This document shows positions 39,596 through 48,087 of a DNA stretch of 64,000 nucleotides, in pieces (position 1 is the first letter of the stretch; every line of letters starts with the position of its first letter). A program made the translations under genes and the position numbers. Under the pieces are notes generated by a model that was not told the origin of the DNA, searched no databases, and saw only the letters and a program-made list of their open reading frames with translations. This DNA comes from Lachnospiraceae bacterium (GTDB lineage: Bacteria; Bacillota; Clostridia; Lachnospirales; Lachnospiraceae), in the NCBI GenBank assembly GCA_029338735.1, contig JAQYAY010000023.1, positions 56,886-120,885 on the forward strand, in the 5' to 3' direction.

Positions 39596-41647
39596 ATGAA
39601 CAGAGAGGCCCTATTTTCAGATGGTACGAGAGCGTACACTACTCCTCCGGAGCCGGAAGAGAATGATACGGTCACAGTGCGCCTTCGTACTGCAAGGGGC
39701 GATGATCTGCGTGTCTGTGTTGTAAAAGGTGACGGAGCCGAGCAGGAGTGTATAAGGGAAGAGAGAACAGAAGAAGACGGAGTTTTCGACTATTACTGTT
39801 GTGACCTGATTCTGGGCACAGAGATGGTCACATATTATTTCAAGATATATAGTGATGAGGGAACCGTATTCTTTGACAGGTTCGGAGTCACTGATACACT
39901 TAGACCACAATATTTTTTCAAAATATCACCAGGATTCCATACGCCTGACTGGGCGAAAGGAGCGGTGATGTACCAGATCCTTGTTGACAGATTCTACAAT
40001 GCCGACAGGACCAATGACGTAGAAAATAACGAATATTATTATATCAATACCTATGTACATCATATCAACAGCTGGTCAAAGCCGCCGGCTGATTTTGATG
40101 TACCGAATTTCTATGGCGGAGATCTCGAAGGAGTAAGACAGAAGCTGTACTATCTGAAGAGCCTTGGAGTTGAGGTCATTTATTTCAATCCGCTTTTTGT
40201 ATCACCATCCAATCACAAGTATGATATTCAGGATTATGACCATATAGATCCGCATCTCGCAAAGATTGTGGATGACGGTGGAGTCACGCTGAATCCGGGA
40301 GACTACGACAATACTCATTCCACGAAGTATCAGAAGAGGACCACAGAGCAGGCCAATCTTGATGCATCGAATGAGTATTTTGCACAGTTTGTAGAAGAAG
40401 CTCACAGCAAGGGAATCAGAGTCATTCTCGATGGTGTGTTCAATCACTGCGGTTCATTCAATAAATGGCTGGACCGTGAGAGGATATATGAGGGAAAGGG
40501 CGGATATGCGCCTGGTGCCTATATTTCCAAGGACAGCCCATATCATAACTTTTTCCATTTCTATGAAGACGGAGATGACAAGTGGCCTTACAACAAGTCG
40601 TATGACGGCTGGTGGGGCAATGATACCCTGCCGAAGCTCAACTACGAGGGCTCGCAGGAGCTTGAAGACTATATCATCGGGATTGGCCGCAAGTGGGTTT
40701 CACCGCCATACAATTGTGATGGCTGGAGGCTCGATGTAGCAGCAGATCTTGGGCATTCGCCTGAGTACAATCATCAGTTCTGGAAGCGTTTCAGGAAAGA
40801 GGTCAAGGATGCCAATCCTGAAGCCGTGATCTTTGCAGAGCATTATGGAGACGCGACTCCGTGGCTTTCTGGCGACCAGTGGGATACGATCATGAATTAT
40901 GATGCGTTCATGGAGCCGGTATCTTTTTTCCTGACAGGAATGGAGAAGCACTCAGACAGATTCGAAAGTGATCTGTATGGCGATGGCCGTGTGTTCGAAG
41001 TCACGATGAGGCATGCCATGTGTGAATTCCTGCCATCATCACTCTACTGTGCGATGAATGAGCTGGACAATCATGATCATTCGAGATTTCTCACGAGGAC
41101 GAATCACAAGGTGGGTCGTGTGGCAGAGCTCGGCAGTGATGCAGCAGGCGAAGGAGTGAATCCGGCAGTGCTGAAGCTCGCGGCACTCATCCAGATGACA
41201 TGGCCGGGCGCACCGACCATCTATTATGGCGATGAGGCCGGAGTAGTAGGATTTACAGATCCTGACAGCAGGCGTACATATCCGTGGGAGAATGCTGATT
41301 ACGAGCTTGTGGACTATCACAGGGACCTCATCTTCATGAGAAAAGTGAACGCGGCCCTGAAGAACGGTTCGCTCAATTTCCTGACCTGTGGCAGAAATTT
41401 CATCAGCTATGCCAGATTCAATGATGAGCAGAAAATGGTAATTGCCATCAATTCGGGTTCTGACAGTATGGAACTGGATATACCTGTATGGAAGGGAGAA
41501 GTACCGATGGAGTGTACGATGACTCAGGTCTTCGCCGCTACATCCAAGGGATATTCCCTGATGCCTGTCAAGATTCAGGTACAGCAGGGAACTATTCATA
41601 TCAGGCTGTCCGGTCTTTCGGGGGTGGTCCTGTCCTATGAGAAGTAA
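39596..41647 (+). CDS. Glycoside hydrolase family 13 alpha-amylase/neopullulanase-like
   Basis: VMYQILVDRFYN, VILDGVFNH, DGWRLDVAADLG, FAEHYGDATPWL, MNELDNHDHSRFLTRT. Confidence 0.94.
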   Translation: MNREALFSDGTRAYTTPPEPEENDTVTVRLRTARGDDLRVCVVKGDGAEQECIREERTEEDGVFDYYCCDLILGTEMVTYYFKIYSDEGTVFFDRFGVTDTLRPQYFFKISPGFHTPDWAKGAVMYQILVDRFYNADRTNDVENNEYYYINTYVHHINSWSKPPADFDVPNFYGGDLEGVRQKLYYLKSLGVEVIYFNPLFVSPSNHKYDIQDYDHIDPHLAKIVDDGGVTLNPGDYDNTHSTKYQKRTTEQANLDASNEYFAQFVEEAHSKGIRVILDGVFNHCGSFNKWLDRERIYEGKGGYAPGAYISKDSPYHNFFHFYEDGDDKWPYNKSYDGWWGNDTLPKLNYEGSQELEDYIIGIGRKWVSPPYNCDGWRLDVAADLGHSPEYNHQFWKRFRKEVKDANPEAVIFAEHYGDATPWLSGDQWDTIMNYDAFMEPVSFFLTGMEKHSDRFESDLYGDGRVFEVTMRHAMCEFLPSSLYCAMNELDNHDHSRFLTRTNHKVGRVAELGSDAAGEGVNPAVLKLAALIQMTWPGAPTIYYGDEAGVVGFTDPDSRRTYPWENADYELVDYHRDLIFMRKVNAALKNGSLNFLTCGRNFISYARFNDEQKMVIAINSGSDSMELDIPVWKGEVPMECTMTQVFAATSKGYSLMPVKIQVQQGTIHIRLSGLSGVVLSYEK

Positions 41648-44318
41648 GATCACACTCGGAATATTAGCACATGTAGATGCCGGGAAGACCACACTGTCTG
41701 AGGCAATGCTTTTTGCCGCAGGAGTCCTGAGACATCATGGAAGAGTAGATGCAGGTGATACTGCGCTTGATACAGATGATATCGAGAAGAGACGCGGTAT
41801 CACTATATATTCGCGTGAGGCCCGTTTTGAGATGGGCGAGGCTCTGATCCAGTTCATAGATACACCGGGGCATGTGGATTTCGGGACAGAGATGGAGAGA
41901 GTCCTGCCGGTGCTTGATGCTGCGGTACTTGTGGTAAGTGCGATTTCAGGAGTAGACAATCATACCAGGAGTCTGTTCAGGCTGCTTTCCGACTATGGGA
42001 TTCCGGCAGTCATTTTTGTCAACAAGATGGATATTGCAAGACTTTCAAAGGATGAGCTGTTTGCGCAGATCAGGGAGAGCCTGTCGGATTCTGTCGTTGA
42101 TTTTTCTCTTGAGAAAAGTCAGAGAGATGAAGAACTCGCACTATGCAGTGATGAATTATTTCAAGAATTTGAAGAAAATAAAAGCCTTTCAGATGATGGA
42201 GTCCGGAAGGCTTTTTCACAAAGGGCATTTTTCCCGGTTCTGTTCGGGAATGCGCTGAAATACAGGACAGAGGGAGATCAGGAACTGCCGCCGGATGGCG
42301 TCAGTGACCTGATGGATCTGATAGTGTCGCTGGCTGTGCCGAAGCCGTATACAGACGGATTCGGCGCGTACTGCTACAAGGTGACGAGAGAAGGCGGCAC
42401 GAGGCTTGTCCATCTGAAGATGACAGGCGGGACACTGTCTGTCAGGGAAAATATCGGTGATGATAAGGTCACCCGTATCAGGCTCATGAATGGAGACCGG
42501 TTTGAAAGTGCGGAGAGCATTGAAGCCGGTGACGTCGCAAGCATAGAGGGACTCGATCATGTGAAGGCCGGAGATGCTCTTGGAGAGTGTAAGGGTAGCG
42601 GAAAGCCTATACTGGAGCCGGTTCTCTCATACAGGGTCATTCCTCCATCAGATGTGAGTCCTCAGAAACTCTACGAAGATATGCAGGTGCTCGGTGAGGA
42701 GGACCCGTCACTCAATGTAGAATGGCTTGAGGAGACGAGAGAAGTCCACATCAGGCTGATGGGGCAGGTTCAGCTGTCTGTCATCACTGAATCGATAAAG
42801 ACCAGATTCGGATATGTGGTGACCTTTGATGCCGGGCGCATCATGTACAAGGAGACAATTGGCTGTGCAGCCGAAGGCATAGGCCATTTCGAACCGCTGA
42901 GACACTATGCCGAGGTGCGTCTTCTGCTCGAACCGGGTGAACCTGGCAGCGGGATAGTGGCAGAGACTGAATGCTCAACAGATATTCTCGACAGGAACTA
43001 CCAGCAGCAGATACTGTCTGTGCTGAATGGCTACAGACACAGAGGAGTTCTCACGGGCAGCCAGCTGACAGATGTGAAGATCACTCTGGTCGGTGGCAGA
43101 TCGCATAATGCTCATACAATGGGTGGTGACTTCAGGAATGCTACGATCAGGGCTGTGAGACAGGGCCTCATGAAGGCTGATCCGGTTCTACTGGAGCCAT
43201 GGTACAGGGTCAATCTGATCATCAGGGGTGATGCAGTCGGCAAAGCCATGAATGATCTTGTACAGATGGGTGGTTCCACCGAGCCGCCACAGATATACGG
43301 TGACAGGGCAGAGATCAGTGGAGAAGTGCCAGTCAGCTCTTTCATGGAATATTCGAAGAAGCTTCTCGTATATACGAACGGACCACAGGATATAGAACTG
43401 TCAAATGCAGGCTACAGACCGTGCCATAATGCAGAGGAGATCATAGAAGAAAAGGCATACGACCCTGAAAGTGACAGGCGGAATTCACCATCATCAGTAT
43501 TCTGTTTCCATGGAGTCGGAGAGAATGTCCCATGGTATCTGGTGGATGGCATAGCCCGTAGCGAACCGACTCTGAAGGGGGATCCTCGTGTTGACTGGGA
43601 TCACACCAGAGAAGTGATAGATGCAGCAGTCGCTGAAGTTGAAGAGATTTATGAGCAGAAGGAGGAGCATCTCGCCGGCGGTGGTGCGATGGAGAAGCAG
43701 GCCCGGAAGAAGAGCTCGTTCCAGGGTTACAGCGGCATGAGCGCCGAGCTCGAGGAGATTTTTGTAAGAGAATTCGGAGAGATAAAAAGGCCGCTTGCTG
43801 ATGATTTTTCCACGGAGAGAGACTACGACCGTGATGAGAATATCCTCAATGCCAGGGAAGACTATATAAAGACGCATATGAATCTTGCCGAGAAGAGGAA
43901 GAATCAGAATATCAAGGACCGATATCTGATAGTTGACGGATACAACGTGATACACGCGTCGAAGGAACTGTCGGCTCTCTTCAGGGACAATATGGATGCA
44001 GCCCGTACTCGTCTTGAGGACGAGGTGGCCAATTATCAGGGATTCGACGGTGCAGAGACTATCATTGTTTTCGATGCTTATAATCGGAAAAATAATGCAG
44101 GCAGATCCCAGAAGAAGGGCAACATCACGATCGTCTTCACGAAGGAAGACCAGACAGCTGATGCATATATAGAGAAGTTTACGCACGATCACAGGGACAG
44201 AGATTCTGTCAGGGTCGTGACATCGGATAATGCAGAACAGACAATAGCCATCGGAAATGGCGCGATAAGGGTATCATCAAGAGAGTTTCTGGAAGAACTC
44301 AGGAATGCGCATTTATGA
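41637..44318 (+). CDS. TetM-like (EF-G family) translational GTPase fused to C-terminal YacP/Rae1-like NYN domain
   Basis: GILAHVDAGKTTLSEAMLFAAG, RRGITI, DTPGHVDF, NKMD; C-terminal YLIVDGYNVIHAS...IVFTKEDQTADAYIEK...VVTSDNAEQTIAIGNGAIRVSSREFLEEL. Confidence 0.92.
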   Translation: MRSKITLGILAHVDAGKTTLSEAMLFAAGVLRHHGRVDAGDTALDTDDIEKRRGITIYSREARFEMGEALIQFIDTPGHVDFGTEMERVLPVLDAAVLVVSAISGVDNHTRSLFRLLSDYGIPAVIFVNKMDIARLSKDELFAQIRESLSDSVVDFSLEKSQRDEELALCSDELFQEFEENKSLSDDGVRKAFSQRAFFPVLFGNALKYRTEGDQELPPDGVSDLMDLIVSLAVPKPYTDGFGAYCYKVTREGGTRLVHLKMTGGTLSVRENIGDDKVTRIRLMNGDRFESAESIEAGDVASIEGLDHVKAGDALGECKGSGKPILEPVLSYRVIPPSDVSPQKLYEDMQVLGEEDPSLNVEWLEETREVHIRLMGQVQLSVITESIKTRFGYVVTFDAGRIMYKETIGCAAEGIGHFEPLRHYAEVRLLLEPGEPGSGIVAETECSTDILDRNYQQQILSVLNGYRHRGVLTGSQLTDVKITLVGGRSHNAHTMGGDFRNATIRAVRQGLMKADPVLLEPWYRVNLIIRGDAVGKAMNDLVQMGGSTEPPQIYGDRAEISGEVPVSSFMEYSKKLLVYTNGPQDIELSNAGYRPCHNAEEIIEEKAYDPESDRRNSPSSVFCFHGVGENVPWYLVDGIARSEPTLKGDPRVDWDHTREVIDAAVAEVEEIYEQKEEHLAGGGAMEKQARKKSSFQGYSGMSAELEEIFVREFGEIKRPLADDFSTERDYDRDENILNAREDYIKTHMNLAEKRKNQNIKDRYLIVDGYNVIHASKELSALFRDNMDAARTRLEDEVANYQGFDGAETIIVFDAYNRKNNAGRSQKKGNITIVFTKEDQTADAYIEKFTHDHRDRDSVRVVTSDNAEQTIAIGNGAIRVSSREFLEELRNAHL

Positions 44319-45406
44319 AGATATTACACTGTGCAGATATACATCTGGATTCAAAAATGGAAAACAAGCTCACTTCGGAGCAGGCAAGGGAGCGGAGAGG
44401 GGAGATCCTCGCCGGCTTTCATAATATGCTCGACTATGCCGAAGAAAACGGCATACAGACAGTGCTCATAGCAGGTGATCTGTTTGACAGAAGGCATATC
44501 AGAAAGACTGTGAAGGATGAAGTGAAGCAGGAATTCATCTCACACAAGGATATTGAATTCTATTATCTGAGAGGCAATCATGATATCACGGATTTCCTTG
44601 ATGATATGGACGAGATACCGAAGAACCTGCATCTGTTCTCTGCAGACAAATGGACCTCATACCGGTGTCCTGACAATATCGTCATCACAGGTCGTGAGCT
44701 GGATGCGAAGTCATCATCTGATCTGATCAGTGAGATGGTGCTCGATCCGTCCAAGGTCAATATAGTAATGCTCCATGGGCAGGACAGTGAGTATCAGTCC
44801 AGAGACAATGCATACACCATAGAGCTCCCGAAGCTACGTAATCATTATATAGACTATCTGGCTCTTGGCCACGTGCACAGCTACAAGTGGGAAGAGCTTG
44901 ACGACAGAGGAGTCTACTGCTATCCGGGATGTCCGGAGGGACGTGGCTTTGATGAGTGCGGGAAAAAGGGCTTTGTAGTCCTTGATATAGACAGCACCGG
45001 GATCAGGTCGCATGAATTCGTATCACTTGCGAAGCGGCAGTTCCATGAGATCAGAGTGGAAGTGGAGCCGGATGATGATCTGAATGCCATTATCGGGAAA
45101 ATAAAAGCAGTTCTGGAAAAAGCATCTCTTGAGGATCTGATCCGTATTGATCTCGTCGGAAGGAAAAATATGGATCTTGAGATCGACTGTGAATGGATAC
45201 GGATGCAGACAGATCAGGGATTCTATTTTTACGATGTAAAGGATGACACAAAGGTCAGGATCAACTATGAGAATTTCGCTCATGACTGGTCACTCAAGGG
45301 GACATTCGTGCGTACAGTTCAGGGCCTTGATATAGATGAAGAGAGAAAGGCACAGATCATCGAGCTCGGAATCCGTGCAATAATGGAAGGGAGCCTTCAG
45401 GAATGA
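44315..45406 (+). CDS. DNA repair exonuclease, SbcD/YhaO-like metallophosphoesterase
   Basis: MKILHCADIHLDSKM, IAGDLFDRR, YYLRGNHD, LALGHVHSYK. Confidence 0.94.
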   Translation: MKILHCADIHLDSKMENKLTSEQARERRGEILAGFHNMLDYAEENGIQTVLIAGDLFDRRHIRKTVKDEVKQEFISHKDIEFYYLRGNHDITDFLDDMDEIPKNLHLFSADKWTSYRCPDNIVITGRELDAKSSSDLISEMVLDPSKVNIVMLHGQDSEYQSRDNAYTIELPKLRNHYIDYLALGHVHSYKWEELDDRGVYCYPGCPEGRGFDECGKKGFVVLDIDSTGIRSHEFVSLAKRQFHEIRVEVEPDDDLNAIIGKIKAVLEKASLEDLIRIDLVGRKNMDLEIDCEWIRMQTDQGFYFYDVKDDTKVRINYENFAHDWSLKGTFVRTVQGLDIDEERKAQIIELGIRAIMEGSLQE

Positions 45407-48087
45407 GACTGATATCAGCATATATAGCCGGTTTCGGAAGGATCACCGACAGGAATATCACTTTTGAACCCGGACTGAATGAGATAATGGATGAAAATGG
45501 TAAGGGCAAGACGACTCTTGCCGTATTCATCAAATCAATGTTTTACGGACTCGAATATTCTCCGAGGAAGAGTTCGCTAACGGAGCGTGATCATTACAGA
45601 CCATGGAATGCCGGTACCTTCGGCGGGAATCTAGTCATTCTCGTCGGGAAAAAGAAGTACCGTATCGAGCGTACATTCGGCGGTACAGCCAAAGAAGATA
45701 CATTTGCACTTTTTGACGAGGATACGGGAGAGGCTTCCACAGACTATTCTGAGAAGATCGGAGAAGAGCTCTTCGAGGTAGACAGGGAGTCATTTGAGAA
45801 GAGTATCTTCGTCCCGCAGGGAGCACTCGAGACGAAGATCACGAGTCAGCTCAATGCCAAGATGGGAGGCCTGGGCTCGGTACAGGATGATATGAACCGT
45901 TACGACCAGGCAGTCGAGGCCATAGACAATGCGAGAAAGGTCTATACTGCGACGAGCAAGGTGAATCCGGGACTCATTAAACAGATCAATGAAAAGATCC
46001 GTGAGGAGAAGGAAAAGGCCGACCGTATTCCGAAGCTGCAGGAGGCCTATGATACCAAGGCTCATATGCTTCTTGAAAAAAGAGCACAGCTCCGTCAGCT
46101 CGAGTACAGGAAGAGCACCCTGTCAGATCAGCTCGCTGCGATCGCGAGAAGCGAGAAGTCTGTCGGAGTATATCAGGCGAAGAAGGATTCACTGAAGAAG
46201 CAGGAAGATGTGCTGCAGGGTCTCGATGATTTCTTTGCAAACGGACTTCCTGATGAAAAGGATATAGATGACCTTGAGAACCGTGAGCGTGAGCTGAGCC
46301 TCAATCGCAACCGCCGTGATATTCTTCGCGAGAAGCTGCCTGAGAAGGATGAGCAGGAATTCCTGGAGAATCTTTTTGCAGACCGCAGTATCTCCGAAGA
46401 TGATATAGATGAATGGAAAAAGGAATCTGAGACCATCAGGTCCCTTCGTATCAAGGGTGAGCATGTACAGATGTCCGATGACGAGCGCAACCAGCTCTCG
46501 GAACTCAGGGAGTTTTTCAAAAAAGGCACACCGGACGATGAGCAGATCCAGAATACACTTTCAGATATCAGCAGATGCAATGAGATATCAGGGCAGATGA
46601 AGTCTCTCGGAGAGACACATCAGAAGCACAGAGAAGCGGCCAATGGGATCAGGGAGACGCAGTCCATTCAGGAAGGTGTCTCGGGAATAGTGATTCTCGG
46701 ATTTATCACAGCAGTATTCTTCATGGCGAGCCTCTTCTTTTTCAATGCCGGTGAGCGCGGATCGCTCAGGATGATCCTTTTCATTGGCAGCTTCGTGGCA
46801 GGTGTTGTGTCTGCAGTAGTCTTTATCATGCAGATAATCCACCGGGCCGCAATGCAGAAGCAGTCGAAGTCGACGATGGAAGATGAACTGGTCGAATCGG
46901 AAAAGGATCTGTCGAAGCTCAGAAGTGAGTACCAGAAGCTCCACGACAGGGCACACGCATTTATTGAGAAGTATCCGGTTTCAGCCGATGACATGCAGCA
47001 GGCGCTTCTTGAGATCCATAGGAAAAAAGACCGCTTCGAGACTCTGAATGCAGAGGAAGCCAAACTGTCTGAGAATACATCAGGAATGGTTGAGGAGCTG
47101 TCAGAGCTCCAGCTCAAGCTGTATACCTCGCTGGATCCGTATGCCAAGGCCTTCGGAATTAATCTGTATGAGGATGCCAAAGAGGATGACCTGATAAAGA
47201 AGATTTCAGACAAGCTCGATGATTATCTCGAATTTGAGGAGAACAATCAGGAATATCAGAGGCTTGTAGCCACGATCAACAGTGAGACTCAGGGAATTCT
47301 GGCTGTGCTCAGGGCATATCCGCTGAAGACGGATATCACAGATCTGGCCGGCTGCCTGCGTGAGATCAGGCAGAATATGCTGCTCTATGGCAGCACTCAG
47401 AAGCAGATTGATGAACTTCAGGATGAGCTGAAGTCGCTGCATGTTGATGATCTCGCCAAGTCAGGCAAGTCTCTTCAGGAGCTTCAGGAAGAGCAGAAGA
47501 AGCTCGACGACGATATATCGAAGCAGAAGCAGTTTATAGCAGAAGACGTGAAAGAGCTTGATTCCCGTTCTGCTACACTTGTGGAATATGAAGAAGCGCG
47601 TGAGACACTCAGGGATCTGAATGCGAAGAAGGCATCATATGAGGAAAAGGTCGATCTCTATGAGGAGACCAAGAAGTATCTCCGGATTGCAAGAGAGAAT
47701 TTCCTCAAGGTATATATGGGACCTCTCAGGGAGCGGCTCAACTACTATATGAAGTCGCTGTATCCGGATTCAGATGACGCCATTCTGACAGATGATTTTG
47801 AGCTTGATATGAATCTGGCGGTATCTGTTTCTGGAAAAAGCGGTGGCGGCCGTACCAGAAGCAGCGATTATCTGTCAAAAGGCTATCAGGATCTCGCTTC
47901 ATTCTGCTCCCGTGCAGCGCTTATAGATGTGCTGTTCCGTCGTGAGGAACCGATGATCATTCTTGATGATCCGTTCGTCAATTTCGATGAAGAAAAATTA
48001 ACCGATGCGAAGAAGCTGATGCAGGAGCTGTCACAGAAGTACCAGATCATATACATGACCTGCCACGAGAGCCGGTCACTGAGGTGA
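45403..48087 (+). CDS. SbcC/YhaN-like SMC-type ATPase
   Basis: N-terminal Walker A-like DENGKGKTTLAVFIKSMFYGLE, long coiled coil, LSKGYQDLASFCSRAALIDVLF and MIILDDPFVNFDEEKL. Confidence 0.92.
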   Translation: MRLISAYIAGFGRITDRNITFEPGLNEIMDENGKGKTTLAVFIKSMFYGLEYSPRKSSLTERDHYRPWNAGTFGGNLVILVGKKKYRIERTFGGTAKEDTFALFDEDTGEASTDYSEKIGEELFEVDRESFEKSIFVPQGALETKITSQLNAKMGGLGSVQDDMNRYDQAVEAIDNARKVYTATSKVNPGLIKQINEKIREEKEKADRIPKLQEAYDTKAHMLLEKRAQLRQLEYRKSTLSDQLAAIARSEKSVGVYQAKKDSLKKQEDVLQGLDDFFANGLPDEKDIDDLENRERELSLNRNRRDILREKLPEKDEQEFLENLFADRSISEDDIDEWKKESETIRSLRIKGEHVQMSDDERNQLSELREFFKKGTPDDEQIQNTLSDISRCNEISGQMKSLGETHQKHREAANGIRETQSIQEGVSGIVILGFITAVFFMASLFFFNAGERGSLRMILFIGSFVAGVVSAVVFIMQIIHRAAMQKQSKSTMEDELVESEKDLSKLRSEYQKLHDRAHAFIEKYPVSADDMQQALLEIHRKKDRFETLNAEEAKLSENTSGMVEELSELQLKLYTSLDPYAKAFGINLYEDAKEDDLIKKISDKLDDYLEFEENNQEYQRLVATINSETQGILAVLRAYPLKTDITDLAGCLREIRQNMLLYGSTQKQIDELQDELKSLHVDDLAKSGKSLQELQEEQKKLDDDISKQKQFIAEDVKELDSRSATLVEYEEARETLRDLNAKKASYEEKVDLYEETKKYLRIARENFLKVYMGPLRERLNYYMKSLYPDSDDAILTDDFELDMNLAVSVSGKSGGGRTRSSDYLSKGYQDLASFCSRAALIDVLFRREEPMIILDDPFVNFDEEKLTDAKKLMQELSQKYQIIYMTCHESRSLR

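Follow-up and report, generated by a model that had tools for sequence, protein, structure and literature searches.

Background

EF-G is an essential translocase, and the tetracycline protection proteins (RPPs) Tet(M) and Tet(O), which share its domain layout, are often carried on mobile elements. To our knowledge, Rae1 is the sole characterised member of the YacP family of nucleases, and it cuts mRNA in a translation-dependent manner. Its descriptions in the literature place its endonuclease activity in the A site of stalled or paused ribosomes (PMC6613710). The "Tet" proteins of ten Clostridiales have been reported to carry a YacP-like NYN RNase domain, for which an RNase-based resistance mechanism was suggested (Atkinson 2015, PMC4342817). 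The protein described here is encoded in a window of 64,000 nucleotides (the whole stretch of DNA analysed) from a Lachnospiraceae bacterium. It has the same architecture as the proteins of that report (PMC4342817), comes from the same bacterial group and almost certainly belongs to the same family; the architecture has already been reported and is not new. A literature search, with most Rae1 papers outside its reach, found no later study of the fusion and no experiment on any member of the family.

Organization of the fused gene

The fused gene (window positions 41637–44318, + strand, as are all the features below; ORF and Pfam) is a single ORF of 893 aa, with an ATG start and no internal stops. 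It shares 11 bases (41637–41647) with the amylase ORF upstream and four bases (44315–44318) with the phosphoesterase ORF downstream, and these overlaps with both neighbours suggest translational coupling. The motifs and EF-G domains of the encoded protein identify it as a translational GTPase of the EF-G (EF2) family (Pfam, Foldseek and alignment). The GTPase (G) domain (residues 5–232; 41649–42332; Pfam GTP_EFTU, 1.7e-45) has an intact P-loop (AHVDAGKTT) and intact DTPGH and NKMD motifs, all of which are kept in about 125 fused homologues. Pfam also recognised EF-G domains III (EFG_III, residues 327–397; 42615–42827), IV (EFG_IV, residues 401–514; 42837–43178) and V (EFG_C, residues 517–598; 43185–43430), and for domain II the score was below the cut-off (21.3 vs 27 bits). 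Domain IV of EF-G is the arm reaching the decoding site, a role that it may be expected to have here by homology; its loop III (GRSHNAHTMGGDFR) was located by alignment at residues 487–500 (43095–43136).

Domain V is followed by a C-terminal extension with the motif SVFCxHGxGxxVPW (residues 598–645; 43428–43571), recognised by alignment and predicted by AlphaFold with a pLDDT of 85–94 for residues 601–640. A linker (residues 646–761; 43572–43919), delimited by alignment and AlphaFold and mostly of low confidence, separates this extension from the YacP/Rae1-type NYN nuclease domain (residues 764–891; 43926–44309; Pfam NYN_YacP, 5.2e-43). Among homologues, this linker varies in both sequence and length (52–137 aa). 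The AlphaFold model, built on 61 fused homologues, had a mean pLDDT of 86, with confident prediction of the GTPase half and the NYN domain (mostly 80–95) and poor prediction of most of residues 646–760; the best Foldseek matches to this model were EF-G structures.

Recurrence of the joined frame across numerous independent genomes ruled out an assembly or frameshift artefact. Within the window's genus, this frame was found in 12 of 13 genomes, the match in the other one (G007) being located at the end of a contig.

The nuclease domain

The NYN domain scored 147 bits against the NYN_YacP profile (gathering score, 24.6 bits) and matched the Bacillus subtilis YacP/Rae1 structures 5mq8 and 5mq9 (E = 4e-20). 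Together with the ORF, the Pfam assignments and the recurrence of the joined frame across genomes, this structural match confirmed the central claim of a preliminary description of the sequence, that an EF-G/Tet-type GTPase and a Rae1-like NYN nuclease are covalently joined. The NYN motifs quoted in that description were present, as were all the conserved Asp residues of YacP/Rae1 (in DGYN, FDA, TAD and TSD). By homology to the NYN/PIN fold, a catalytic role is predicted for four residues: Asp767 (DGYN; 43935–43937), Asp813 (FDAY; 44073–44075), Asp842 (TADAYIE; 44160–44162) and Asp864 (TSD; 44226–44228). The conservation of these residues, singled out for checking in the preliminary description, was complete, the first three being found in 126/126 fused homologues and Asp864 in 125/125 of those aligned; the GTPase residues were near-invariant among the same homologues. 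In all nine same-genus pairs compared, dN was lower for the NYN domain than for the GTPase half, and the omega values, which are rough because dS exceeded 1, ranged from 0.02 to 0.08 where dS could be estimated. The nuclease is under strong constraint. A single origin of the fused nuclease was neither supported nor rejected by the short NYN tree (p-AU 0.40).

The match to the NYN profile ends at position 130 of 166: the window's protein lacks the conserved C-terminal tail present in stand-alone YacP (typically ...EKLRR), and many fusions show erosion of this tail. This missing tail leaves the NYN homology standing, because it lies outside the conserved Asp core. Residue R166 of Rae1 falls by position within the tail region, as placed via a 170-aa homologue (L085), and the R166P substitution is an efp suppressor recovered along with rae1 frameshifts (PMC6613710).

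Phylogenetic placement of the GTPase half

The GTPase half was 27–30% identical to Tet(M), Tet(O), Tet(S) and Tet(W), 32% identical to TetB(P), and 39–45% identical to the stand-alone GTPases found in Ligilactobacillus salivarius, Paenibacillus and Subdoligranulum. The RPP model NF012153 was the top match among named models, with a score (377 bits) below its cut-off of 775 bits; the EF-G model TIGR00484 gave 241 bits, below its cut-off of 659 bits. Phylogenetic analysis was performed on 52 rows, in which the RPPs included Tet(M), Tet(O), Tet(Q), Tet(36), TetB(P) and OtrA. The RPPs formed one clade (100/99), and the query and its stand-alone relatives formed a separate clade (99/96). The fusions constituted a supported group (100/99) that also contained the stand-alone GTPase of L. 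salivarius, which has apparently lost its nuclease secondarily, judging from this placement.

Loop III conforms to the consensus G(R/K)AHxKHTEGGDFR in nearly all of the 126 fused proteins (GRAHxKHTEGGDFR in most homologues), unlike the corresponding loops of TetM (YYSPVSTPADFR) and EF-G (GSYHDVDSNE). The query lacked the YYSPVSTPADF motif of RPP loop III and any close variant of it, a loop of the GRAHxKHTEGGDFR type being found in the 126 fused proteins. The C-terminal extension occupies the place of TetM's own C-terminal part; it is common to most of the stand-alone GTPases (L196 excepted), and absent from TetM/TetO and EF-G. The position of EF-G H583, occupied by His in most members of the GTPase family, corresponds to residue 490 here (43104–43106). 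Part of the window's genus, and L. salivarius, have Ser at this position (window's protein; homologues L033, L035, L039 and L041), with the next HT kept.

On these comparisons, the GTPase half belongs to a lineage of translational GTPases apart from both EF-G and the RPPs. The term "TetM-like" used in the preliminary description did not hold, given the identity of 27–32%, the score of 377 vs 775 bits, the position outside the RPP clade and the missing loop III motif, and the TetM label for the fused protein should be dropped. Tetracycline protection by this protein is unlikely on the same grounds, but sequence alone does not settle the question, because TetM tolerates a triple substitution in loop III (PMC4750697).

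The homologues of Agathobacter rectalis (L102:8974–11775) and L. salivarius (L103:5977–7911) are annotated as TetM/TetW/TetO/TetS, yet lie outside the RPP clade, and these resistance annotations are likely to be false. Resistance surveillance is affected by such labels, as the family tests used here do not support the designation of these homologues as tetracycline resistance proteins. On the L. salivarius megaplasmid pMP118 (L103:5520–7911), the stand-alone GTPase gene adjoins, in divergent orientation, rpsN, which encodes ribosomal protein S14.

Distribution and pairing with YacP

The fusion is widespread in Clostridia. A scan of named genomes yielded at least 591 stretches encoding relatives, 80 of which were kept and examined for both domains; both were present in 79 of these 80 loci, which include Butyrivibrio, Intestinimonas butyriciproducens, Eubacterium xylanophilum, Anaerovorax odorimutans and Fusibacter. 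Fusions numbered 34 among the 61 genomes of the relatives sample, and 18, with two additional stand-alone GTPases, among the 300 genomes of the phylum sample. The order sample consisted of 294 genomes, each at least 90% complete, for which the lists of GTPase and NYN_YacP matches were compared by eye. The GTPase was found in 169 of these genomes and NYN_YacP, fused or separate, in 168 of the 169, these counts being of genomes rather than of independent events and uncorrected for phylogeny. In the single exception (G411), the GTPase match is cut by a contig end. A stand-alone GTPase and a stand-alone YacP occur together in at least 17 genomes, counted among those for which both frame lengths are known; in genome G047 (77% complete), the GTPase was present and YacP was undetected. 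This near-obligate pairing constitutes the main new support for a functional link, and the GTPase and YacP are therefore predicted to act together where they are encoded by separate genes.

Replacement of stand-alone YacP and gene neighbourhood

Stand-alone yacP sits with cysS, mrnC, rlmB and sigH (names presumed from the sequences) in 15–16 of 20 loci, and these neighbours were found at 0–2 of the 126 fused loci. In the window's genome, a cysteine desulfurase gene comes immediately after cysS-mrnC-rlmB, and yacP is absent from the slot after rlmB. The fusion is the only YacP of this genome, and the search for a separate yacP gene, as envisaged in the preliminary description, found none. The host genome also contains tmRNA. 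The same description had raised the possibility that Lachnospiraceae keep the fusion and lack a separate yacP, and the fusion was found in most of the sampled genomes of the family. In genus g334, the fusion coexists with an intact free YacP at the ancestral locus near cysS and sigH (read in G443: L220:6397–6927, L219:1–1935). Two NYN matches each in G380 and G461 also indicate this double state. Replacement of Rae1 by the fusion is not universal, because g334 keeps both.

No conserved operon partner was found among the fused loci, ftsH, amylase, phosphoesterase and SMC-like ATPase genes recurring only in about 12 loci of the window's genus. The run ftsH-amylase-fusion-phosphoesterase-SMC-like ATPase was found only in this genus, and its phosphoesterase is calcineurin-like. 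Directly downstream from the fused gene (44315–48087), the metallophosphoesterase and the SMC-like ATPase form a Mre11/Rad50-like pair, which we take to resemble YhaO/YhaN.

Several other assignments of the gene were considered. A mobile resistance gene is disfavoured: plasmid matches to the whole fusion were limited to two large replicons, and the two matches in phage records were unannotated faecal scaffolds. A phage origin, hinted at by PHROG 6880, was unsupported: only three loci were found in 2.9 million viral contigs, with frames devoid of the nuclease, and a viral structure search returned distant GTPases only. No PADLOC model for anti-phage defence was matched. The idea that EF-G has been lost and that the fusion has taken over was also unsupported; in the host assembly (G000; L108, L110), contig C59 terminates at EF-Tu and C36 at a weak partial match, and the host EF-G probably lies in an assembly gap, or was split or lost by assembly, rather than being absent.

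Proposed mechanism and alternative explanations

We consider there to be about an even chance (probability of roughly 0.5) that the fused protein is a two-part ribosome quality-control factor, in which the GTPase engages paused ribosomes, delivers a tethered A-site mRNase and feeds tmRNA rescue. The GTPase half would bind a paused or blocked 70S ribosome at its factor site, domain IV would be placed in the A site, and GTP hydrolysis would remodel or empty this site. The NYN nuclease, on its flexible linker of about 50–140 residues, would enter or be presented to the A site and cut the mRNA there, as proposed for free Rae1 in B. subtilis, and the truncated complex would be left to tmRNA. In relatives with separate genes, the GTPase and free YacP would act in trans; fusion would make delivery obligatory and leave the nuclease free to lose its own tail. 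Because Rae1 and domain IV would compete for the same A site, the GTPase and the nuclease would have to act sequentially, or the cut would have to be made elsewhere; sequential action is the most economical reading. The recognition of stalled ribosomes and cleavage of their mRNA, as put forward in the preliminary description, is plausible and better supported by the co-occurrence with YacP, whereas the binding of the fused protein to ribosomes, its entry into the A site, its cleavage of mRNA and its trigger are steps that we infer.

More tentatively, the GTPase may represent a new class of ribosome-rescue factor, distinct from EF-G and the RPPs, in which GTP hydrolysis gates mRNA cleavage on stalled ribosomes by its near-constant partner YacP/Rae1, working in trans in some bacteria and fused to it in a large proportion of Clostridia. 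If this is true, the GTPase would be the factor, missing until now, that delivers the nuclease in the Rae1 pathway wherever a species has both genes. A natural and widespread covalent GTPase-nuclease pair in common gut bacteria provides a direct handle on the admission of A-site nucleases to stalled ribosomes.

The two halves could, alternatively, have been joined merely for co-expression and ribosome proximity, an ordinary Rae1 nuclease being linked, but not mechanistically coupled, to a GTPase with a separate job, such as slow back-up translocation or recycling. Such a fusion would be in keeping with the separate occurrence of both halves in relatives, the variability of the linker and the apparent loss of the nuclease in the L. 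salivarius lineage, but the GTPase is almost never found without YacP, a pairing that independent jobs would not demand, and the erosion of the YacP tail in fusions also argues against it; we consider it rather unlikely. A further possibility is an antibiotic-related role, with the GTPase removing tetracycline or another A-site drug and the nuclease clearing the mRNA of drug-stalled ribosomes, which would be near the earlier proposal (PMC4342817). The RPP model is the best named-model match, homologues are annotated as "TetM/TetW/TetO/TetS family" and TetM tolerates some loop III substitutions (PMC4750697). The identity of 27–32% to RPPs, the score of 377 vs 775 bits, the position outside the RPP clade and the different loop III and C-terminal extension nevertheless render this explanation improbable, as does the carriage of a resident gene widely across Clostridia, unlike a mobile resistance gene.

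The least probable of the explanations considered here is a role in rRNA or tRNA maturation or decay, with the NYN domain processing rRNA, the activity originally proposed for YacP, and the GTPase positioning it on a subunit or on the 70S ribosome: the characterised Rae1 cuts mRNA, in a translation-dependent manner, even though stand-alone yacP adjoins rlmB and mrnC, both encoding rRNA enzymes, and a proposed role of the domain in rRNA/tRNA maturation has been cited (PMC4342817).

Comparison with known systems

The Rae1/YacP protein of B. subtilis (5mq8, 5mq9) has a domain homologous to the fused NYN domain, with the same four Asp positions, but it is free, is encoded after rlmB, and has the C-terminal tail often lost in fused copies. 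Tet(M) and Tet(O) resemble the fused GTPase in their five-domain EF-G-like layout, and their loop III aligns with that of the fusion at the same length, but they belong to a separate clade, differ in loop III and the C-terminal extension, and lack a nuclease. EF-G has the same domains and fold, but also differs in loop III and the extension and is devoid of nuclease. The stand-alone GTPases (L. salivarius pMP118, Paenibacillus, Subdoligranulum and several Clostridia) share the loop III signature and, for the most part, the extension of the fusion, and belong to the same clade, with 39–45% identity to the fusion for the plasmid examples; unlike the fusion, they have no nuclease domain and are about 640–670 aa long. 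Finally, the fusions reported previously were filed as Tet, with a new resistance mechanism proposed in one sentence (PMC4342817), whereas the GTPase is here set apart from the RPPs. To that report, the present analysis adds a separate GTPase clade, a wide spread in Clostridia, a link to the loss of ancestral yacP, the co-occurrence with YacP, and the erosion of the tail.
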